64,000 bases of DNA from Athalassotoga saccharophila (lineage in GTDB: Bacteria > Thermotogota > Thermotogae > Mesoaciditogales > Mesoaciditogaceae): positions 837,501 to 901,500 of the forward strand of contig NZ_AP019551.1 in assembly GCF_009936215.1 (NCBI RefSeq), written 5' to 3'. The notes under the pieces are model-generated. The model did no database searches and was not told the origin of the DNA. It saw nothing but the letters and a program-made list of their open reading frames with translations. This document shows, one piece after another, positions 32,443-60,274 of the stretch (positions within the stretch are counted from its first letter, which is position 1; the number at the start of each line of letters is the position of its first letter). The position numbers were made by a program, and so were the translations under genes.

Positions 32443-32479
32443 GATCTCCCTTTTCATCGTGCCAATGCCACGAATTTTT

Positions 32480-32619
32480 TAACAGGCAGGTCTTCTGGCT
32501 TCCGGCTCAAATCTGCGCCTTCCCGTTTCCAGTGGCATATGCAGATCCTATCTCCGGTTACAGCGGCGGGCCCGCGTCGGTCTTTCACCGAACTTCCCTT
32601 TTAAACAATGTACCTGTTA
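32480..32619 (-). promoter_or_regulatory. Cobalamin (adenosylcobalamin) riboswitch
   Basis: Minus-strand aptamer bounded by P1 halves TAACAGG (32619-32613, reading as given on the RNA) and CCTGTTA (32486-32480). Inside are the class hallmarks: GGGAAGTTCGGTGAAAGACCG, GCCGCTGTAACCGG, the B12 box TATGCCACTGG, and AGCCAGAAGACCTGCC at the 3' side. It controls the operon cobA-cbiP-cbiB-cobD-cobU-cobS-cblS-cblT. Confidence 0.95.
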
Positions 32620-32626
32620 TAAATCG

Positions 32627-32632
32627 ATTATA
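32627..32632 (-). promoter_or_regulatory. -10 element of the cobalamin operon
   Basis: Consensus TATAAT on the minus strand, seven bases upstream of the riboswitch P1 stem. No clear -35 hexamer. Confidence 0.6.
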
Positions 32633-58811: not shown

Positions 58812-60086
58812 TTATTTTCCAACGTAAGAGTTAAGATCTAAAAGTCCATGACCGCTGAAGTTGAAAACTATGACCTTTTCTTCTCCACTTTTGGCGAACT
58901 CTTTTGCGTACCGCGCGACGCCTGCGATGGCATGACTTGTCTCTGGTGCCGGAATTATGCCTTCCGTTATCGCAAAAAGTTTTGCGTATTCAAAAGCCTC
59001 ATCCTGCGGAATGGCTATTGCCTTCATGTAATTTTCTTTGACAAGACGGCTTATTATAGGGGACGCACCGTGGTATCTCAATCCACCCGCGTAAATTGGA
59101 GGTGGAACGAATTCGGAACCGAGCGTGTACATCTTGAGCATCGGGGTAAGATGGGCCGTGTCTCCGTAATCGTATTTGTACTCTCCTTTCGTGAAGGACG
59201 GGCATTCAGTTGGCTCGCACGCCACTATTTCGAGGGATTTTTTCTTCATCTTTAAAGGAATAAATGGCAGTGTAAATCCTCCAAAGTTGGATCCGCCACC
59301 GAAACATCCTATCAAAACGTCTGGTTCCTCTCCGACAAGTTCGAGTTGCTTTTGCGTTTCCTGACCTATGACTGTCTGGTGCAAAAGCACGTGATCGAGC
59401 ACGCTTCCAAGGGAATAATGAGTTTTTTCTTTAGAGAGTGCGAATTCTATGGCCTCACTTATTGCCATTCCGAGAGAGCCTGTCGAGTCTGGTTTGATTT
59501 CGAGAATTTTCTTTCCGTAATTTGTGAAATCACTTGGACTGGGATGGATCTTTCCGTTAAAAAGGTTTACCATGTATTTTCTTGCCGGTTTCTGTTCAAA
59601 ACTTATCTTTACCATAAAGACATTCACGTCCAAGTTGAAATAGGCCCCTGCAAAGGCGAGAGCGCTTCCCCACTGACCGGCCCCCGTCTCAGTCGATATC
59701 TTCGTTGTCCCTTCAACGAGGTTGTAGTATGCTTGAGCAAGAGCCGTGTTGAGTTTGTGACTACCCGTAGGACTTACAGATTCGTTTTTGTAGTATATGC
59801 GGGCCGGGCTCTTTAGAGCCTTCTCAAATCCTATGGCCCTCACAAGCGGGGTAGGCCTGTAAAGCGCGTAAGCCTCTCTTACCTTCTGTGGAATTTCGAT
59901 GTACCTTTCTTTTGTGCCTTCCTGCATTACGAGAGCCTTTGGAAATAAGACTTCGAGTTTTTGCGGGTCCATTGGTTTCATATTCTGTGGATCGATCGGC
60001 GGATCGAGATCGAAAGGCAGATCTGCCTTGACATTGTACCAGTATTTCGGTATGTCCTCTTCTTTTAAATACACAAATCTCCTCAT
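58812..60086 (-). CDS. trpB2: Tryptophan synthase beta chain, TrpB2 type
   Basis: PLP enzyme of 424 residues of the TrpB2 subfamily, which makes tryptophan from indole and serine without TrpA activation. Schiff-base lysine in [14 protein letters not shown], glycine-rich phosphate loop [11 protein letters not shown], catalytic glutamate in [20 protein letters not shown]. The TrpB2 marks are the long N-terminal extension (residues 1-55) and the length. No trpA or other trp gene is near. Its transcription is controlled by the attenuator in front of it. Confidence 0.95.
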
Positions 60087-60112
60087 TTCAATTCCTCCCT
60101 TCTAAAATGAAA

Positions 60113-60141
60113 ATCGGGGATCTTTTTTCAAGATCCCCGAT
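60113..60141 (-). terminator. Attenuator terminator of trpB2
   Basis: Minus strand 12-bp perfect stem ATCGGGGATCTT / AAGATCCCCGAT (60141-60130 and 60124-60113) followed by TTTTCATTTT. It lies between the leader peptide and trpB2. Confidence 0.92.
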
Positions 60142-60183
60142 GCTGAATTATGGCAAAAGGCACCAATCCCTTCAGCACCAGGG
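60135..60183 (-). promoter_or_regulatory. Antiterminator of the trp attenuator
   Basis: Minus strand: CCCTGGTGCTGAA (60183-60171, the last codons of the leader peptide) pairs over 13 bases with TTCAGCATCGGGG (60147-60135), with two G-U pairs. Its 3' arm includes seven bases (60141-60135) of the terminator stem, so the two structures exclude each other. Confidence 0.85.
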
Positions 60184-60228
60184 ACGGTACCACCACCAAT
60201 TTTCGACTTTGAAATTCAAACCAATCAT
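60172..60228 (-). CDS. trpL: Tryptophan leader peptide
   Basis: A 57-base reading frame on the minus strand encoding the 18-residue peptide MIGLNFKVENWWWYRPWC, with three Trp codons in a row (60198-60190) and a fourth near the end, then TGA. It is preceded by AAAGGTGAT at the right distance and by a good promoter. Four Trp in 18 residues directly before a terminator and trpB2 marks it as a ribosome-sensing leader. The stop codon lies inside the antiterminator arm. Confidence 0.93.
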   Translation of the reverse strand: MIGLNFKVENWWWYRPWC

Positions 60229-60245
60229 AAGATCACCTTTGATAA

Positions 60246-60274
60246 AATATATCATAGATTTTCCAAAAAGTCAA
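60246..60274 (-). promoter_or_regulatory. Promoter of trpL-trpB2
   Basis: Minus strand: -35 TTGACT (60274-60269), 17-base spacer, -10 TATATT (60251-60246). The transcript would begin near 60239, just before the leader-peptide ribosome site. Confidence 0.8.

Follow-up and report, generated by a model that had tools for sequence, protein, structure and literature searches.

A gene for a 424-aa tryptophan synthase beta-like protein lies on the minus strand of the window (the whole 64,000-nt stretch of Athalassotoga saccharophila DNA analysed here). Profile comparison identified the product as TrpB2, with 630 bits to TIGR01415 (cut-off 519) and 676 bits to NF009057, whereas the TrpB1 model TIGR00263 failed (151 bits, cut-off 392). 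A separate trpB1 is present in the same genome, within the trp operon approximately 70 kb from trpB2, and the closest named relative is a Mesoaciditoga MAG, with a trpB2 identity of 97%. Read from 60274 to 58812 on the minus strand, the locus consists of a promoter, a Shine-Dalgarno sequence, an 18-codon ORF, an alternative RNA fold, a 12-bp terminator, and the stand-alone trpB2:

60246..60274, minus strand: sigma-70-type promoter TTGACT-N17-TATATT, with TG ahead of the -10 element and 10 of 12 matches
60231..60240, minus strand: Shine-Dalgarno sequence AAAGGTGATC of the leader ORF, 2 nt 5' of the ATG, with the core GG about 7 nt away
60172..60228, minus strand: leader ORF MIGLNFKVENWWWYRPWC (18 codons; ATG at 60228, stop codon TGA at 60174-60172), with a Trp run kept in relatives
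60190..60198, minus strand: three tandem Trp codons (WWW), the putative sensor, a run kept in 63 of 73 Thermotogota trpB2 leaders
60178..60180, minus strand: fourth Trp codon, unconserved, replaced by TGA in both same-genus relatives
60151..60195, minus strand: 1:2 hairpin (60195-60180 with 60171-60151), the protector, sequestering part of the antiterminator 5' arm, -21.7 kcal/mol
60133..60185, minus strand: 2:3 antiterminator (60185-60171 with 60147-60133), -28.3 kcal/mol, with 0 of 200 shuffles as good
60113..60141, minus strand: 3:4 intrinsic terminator, 12 bp with a loop of 5, then a T-rich tract, -20.0 kcal/mol
60094..60100, minus strand: trpB2 Shine-Dalgarno sequence AGGGAGG, outside all three hairpins
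58812..60086, minus strand: trpB2

An earlier note on this DNA had described most of these parts. The promoter and Shine-Dalgarno sequence that it placed ahead of the leader are both present; transcription is expected to start near 60231..60240 on the minus strand, and the sister locus L009 has a near-identical promoter. The terminator was recovered as described, except that its T-tract is imperfect (TTTTCATTTT). The antiterminator also exists and competes with the terminator, but its dimensions needed revision from 13 bp and 7 shared nt to 15 bp, including G-U pairs, and 9 nt in common with the terminator 5' arm. All four Trp codons claimed for the leader occur in the window, but the fourth is TGA in the same-genus genomes G001 (L009/L090) and G002 (L010/L091). 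The whole element showed a folding z of -5.1 against dinucleotide shuffles.

Two further features of the window were recorded. A perfect 11-nt inverted repeat (CGGCAGGATAT...ATATCCTGCCG) at 58802-58763 (minus strand), between trpB2 and the next small gene, flanks a promoter-like TTGACT-17-GATAAT and looks like either a candidate operator or a hairpin that closes trpB2. A cobalamin riboswitch (104 bits) was found at 32468-32632 (minus strand).

Constraint folding, in which the ribosome was drawn as occupying the 15 nt that follow the P-site start, revealed that the terminator and antiterminator are mutually exclusive. The earlier note had proposed folding the leader with a ribosome at WWW or at the stop codon. 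With the ribosome at W1 or W2, the antiterminator formed in the nascent RNA, and with the ribosome at codon 17 or at the stop, where it masks the antiterminator arm, 2:3 was blocked and the complete terminator formed. With no ribosome, the minimum was 1:2 plus the terminator. At equilibrium and with the ribosome at W1, the completed transcript, folded into a terminator shortened to 9 bp plus a shortened antiterminator (-36.2), was slightly more stable than the nascent RNA with the antiterminator alone (-32.6), so antitermination must rely on the order of folding during transcription. Folding also contradicted the earlier remark that the switch is simpler than that of E. coli and needs no separate pause hairpin, since a 1:2 hairpin that sequesters part of the antiterminator 5' arm is present. 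Comparison of the copies within the genus and before its trp operon showed compensatory changes, with four 1:2 pairs changed on both sides, and the hairpin was better than single-base shuffles in 51 of 62 relatives.

The leader ORF is short and translatable with tandem Trp codons, and its target is a gene for Trp supply (TIGR01415, with TrpB2 described as a Trp synthase in literature cited in PMC11917138). We infer ribosome stalling, termination, and a Trp response along the following lines. When Trp is low, the ribosome would stall at the first Trp codons and cover the RNA to about 60186, hiding the left arm of 1:2 and leaving 60185-60171 free, so that 2:3 would form before the terminator 3' arm exists and trpB2 would be transcribed. 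When Trp is high, the ribosome would reach the stop codon, located in the antiterminator 5' arm, and mask that arm; after ribosome release, or without translation, 1:2 would hold it. With the arm masked or held, the 3:4 terminator would end transcription about 26 nt before trpB2. Leader-peptide systems with translational control exist, and the hairpins might act on trpB2 translation in the same manner. We regard this as highly improbable, because a terminator-like hairpin with a T-tract precedes the gene at all 63 Thermotogota loci that carry the element, and the trpB2 Shine-Dalgarno sequence is clear of the three hairpins, which argues for control at transcription.

Within the family, all nine genomes with trpB2 (one split over two contigs) carry the Trp run, the antiterminator, and the terminator. 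The leader comparison suggested in the earlier note came out in its favour: every one of the 9 family genomes that have trpB2 kept WWW, as did 63 of 73 in the phylum, and the peptide outside the Trp run drifts freely (MIGLNFKIENWWWYCP, MCDLRTSSLKIQNNWWWHKP). In G003, a fourth genome of the genus (L186/L104), trpB2 survives only as remnants, with the leader and the N-terminal part gone; this genome keeps its trp operon and the operon attenuator. Upstream of the leader ORF in the sister genera g2 and g3 (L092, L093, L094, L096, and L097), at a distance of no more than a few tens of bases, lies the end of a tRNA-Val (GAC) gene. The tRNA and the leader are apparently cotranscribed, in which case tRNA processing would determine where the attenuator RNA begins.

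Across the phylum, trpB2 was present in 75 of 103 Thermotogota genomes; upstream DNA was obtained for all of these genes and was long enough to judge in 73. A leader was scored where a short ORF had three or more Trp within four codons and a terminator lay between this ORF and the gene. Both elements were found at 63 of the 73 genes, neither at 10, and just one at none, against control rates for the Trp-run ORF of 0.08% in shuffled sequence and 0.4% in other segments of the same loci. The same arrangement before so many trpB2 genes indicates that the element in the window is not due to chance, and the predicted switch is conserved across almost the whole phylum. The final terminator calling used a position limit, by which L180 was missed.

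An antiterminator was located in all but one of the 63 leaders, and in 60 of these 62 it was better than shuffles (p<=0.05). L166 was borderline (p 0.06), and no convincing antiterminator was found in L171 (WYWW). The 5' arm begins a median of 3 nt past the last Trp codon (central 90%: 0-6), which is where the RNA emerges from a ribosome stalled at W1. Arm sequences differ strongly between families, indicating that geometry, not sequence, is what is kept. In L115 and L118 of family f8, the 1:2 hairpin has an unusual strength of about -27 to -28 kcal/mol and is followed by TTTT, resembling a possible second terminator or pause site.

Alternative hairpins alone would equally suit a riboswitch, a T-box, or a Trp-binding protein that controls the terminator while the leader ORF is incidental. 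At this site, however, the Rfam Trp_leader model RF00513 gave no match at gathering score or at E<=10, and there was no covariance-model match to the T-box RF00230 or to any other Rfam leader or riboswitch. Moreover, the Trp-run ORF and the terminator occur strictly together (63/63 with, 10/10 without), and the Trp run stays fixed beside the antiterminator arm despite the divergence of the arm between families. A sensor of this kind has, in our estimate, next to no probability.

The genome's own trp operon begins with a leader (MSNLNLKSFLNNNWWWYRTRC) and the same terminator stem as the trpB2 switch. The earlier note's statement that the device controls one gene instead of a trp operon thus holds for the copy in the window but not for the genome, which has a second attenuator of the same design. 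A genome-wide search for ATG...TGGTGGTGG gave 15 pattern matches, of which one other starts a long ORF, and the shared terminator was found only at the trpB2 and trp-operon leaders. In gapped global alignments, in which about 60% is near background, the trpB2 switch of the genus showed 83% identity to its own trp-operon switch and 58-71% to the trpB2 switches of sister genera. This greater closeness to its own operon suggests that, within the window's genus, the trpB2 switch was copied from the trp operon. In the trp-operon attenuator of G001 (L187), a C-to-A difference in the terminator 3' arm (AAGATCACCGAT) breaks one pair. Several other Thermotogota trp operons have WWW, CWW, or WW leaders with terminators, and no such leader with a terminator was found at the Thermotoga-like trp operons examined.

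A short Trp-containing leader with termination control downstream would also be expected of a TnaC-like arrest peptide, in which an abundance of free Trp makes the nascent WWW peptide stall the ribosome, leading to induction by Trp. Arrest peptides conserve spaced residues, whereas this peptide varies freely save for the Trp run. The arm geometry also favours stalling at W1 over the stop codon, the target is a biosynthetic enzyme, for which the logic would be inverted, and the same device stands before trp biosynthetic operons; we consider arrest of this type very unlikely. The core claim of the earlier note, that a ribosome-sensing Trp attenuator controls trpB2, has strong support from the leader, the correct spacing of the parts, the competing folds, and the phylum-wide conservation. 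Judged from sequence and modelled folding, the trpB2 leader is very probably a ribosome-mediated transcription attenuator of the E. coli trpL type, which would make trpB2 respond to tRNA-Trp charging.

A quick, midpoint-rooted TrpB2 tree placed 71 of 72 Thermotogota rows in one clade (SH-aLRT 100). The ten genes lacking the switch belong either to a single clade (genera g34 and g35) or to two g27 members, and G091, which is among the ten, was too broken for inclusion in the tree. Counted by eye on the tree, this distribution suggests one ancestral gain and about three losses as the simplest reading. One of these losses would fall in the lineage of g35, which we take to be Thermotoga from its sequences and gene neighbours, and this may explain why the switch has gone unnoticed.

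For 54 of the 63 switched trpB2 genes, the genome had neither trpA nor trpC (IGPS) above Pfam cut-offs, and 32 of these genomes were at least 98% complete; TrpB2 there cannot be fed by its own pathway. According to papers cited in PMC11917138, TrpB2 acts as a Trp synthase that depends on phosphoserine (Busch 2014) and has a high indole affinity (Hettwer and Sterner 2002). The simplest reading points to Trp-controlled salvage of outside indole, with the use of free indole in vivo presumed: TrpB2 would join indole and (phospho)serine to give Trp, and the switch would activate this salvage during Trp starvation in the many species that lack trpA and trpC. Taken together, we consider it probable that trpB2 attenuation is ancestral to Thermotogota and marks TrpB2 in this phylum as an indole-salvage synthase induced by Trp starvation. 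On this reading, dozens of species would have retained the attenuation after losing the other pathway genes, the Thermotoga lineage, which is the most widely used model group, would have lost it, and in the window's genus a trp-operon copy would have replaced the trpB2 switch. The switch provides regulatory evidence on the debated role of TrpB2: cells appear to handle its gene as one that supplies tryptophan, also where neither trpA nor trpC exists. If true, Trp-regulated growth on indole is predicted.

Outside Thermotogota, the idea that trpB2 generally carries such leaders was rejected, as a WWW leader was found at only 4 of 78 loci, with the looser Trp clusters far upstream at L025 and L043 (WCWW and WRWW) left uncounted. 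The four loci belong to a deltaproteobacterial MAG (L011) and to Actinomycetota (Solincola-like; L016, L018, and L019), and their WWW leaders are followed by terminator-like hairpins.

The E. coli trpL attenuator (RF00513) has a leader with tandem Trp codons, 1:2, 2:3, and 3:4 hairpins, a stop codon in the switching region, an intrinsic terminator, and a Trp biosynthetic target. The element in the window shares all of these, including the shortness of the leader and the mutual exclusivity of the three hairpins. It differs in giving no covariance-model match, in controlling a single trpB2, in having three Trp codons rather than two, in placing the antiterminator 5' arm in the last leader codons, and in belonging to a different phylum. 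The actinobacterial trp attenuators of Corynebacterium and Streptomyces also combine leader peptides containing double or triple UGG runs with a terminator and antiterminator, but they are located before trp operons and not before a stand-alone TrpB2-family gene (PMC1262725); a Corynebacterium diphtheriae operon named trpB2A is reported there with an attenuator as well. The trpB motif (PMC11109978) is likewise a conserved RNA that includes a terminator and in some cases lies ahead of trpB, but it is a proposed riboswitch of Firmicutes and Fusobacteria, lies mostly before an ABC transporter, and is described there with no Thermotogota named.

A 2010 survey (PMC2965389) reported histidine leaders in Firmicutes and stated that, until then, leader-peptide attenuators had been demonstrated in Proteobacteria and Actinobacteria only. 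A 2013 survey of cis-regulatory RNAs (PMC3766115), which covered 11 Thermotogales, proposed a possible origin of amino acid attenuators in gamma-proteobacteria. Phylum-wide trpB2 attenuators would sit poorly with both views. No report of Trp attenuation in Thermotogota was found in the open-access literature searched, and as most subscription papers fell outside this scope, the absence is only suggestive. The mechanism itself is known from E. coli trpL and the actinobacterial attenuators; the comparison suggests that what is new is its occurrence across Thermotogota, as a full E. coli-type device predicted for nearly a whole phylum outside Proteobacteria and Actinobacteria.
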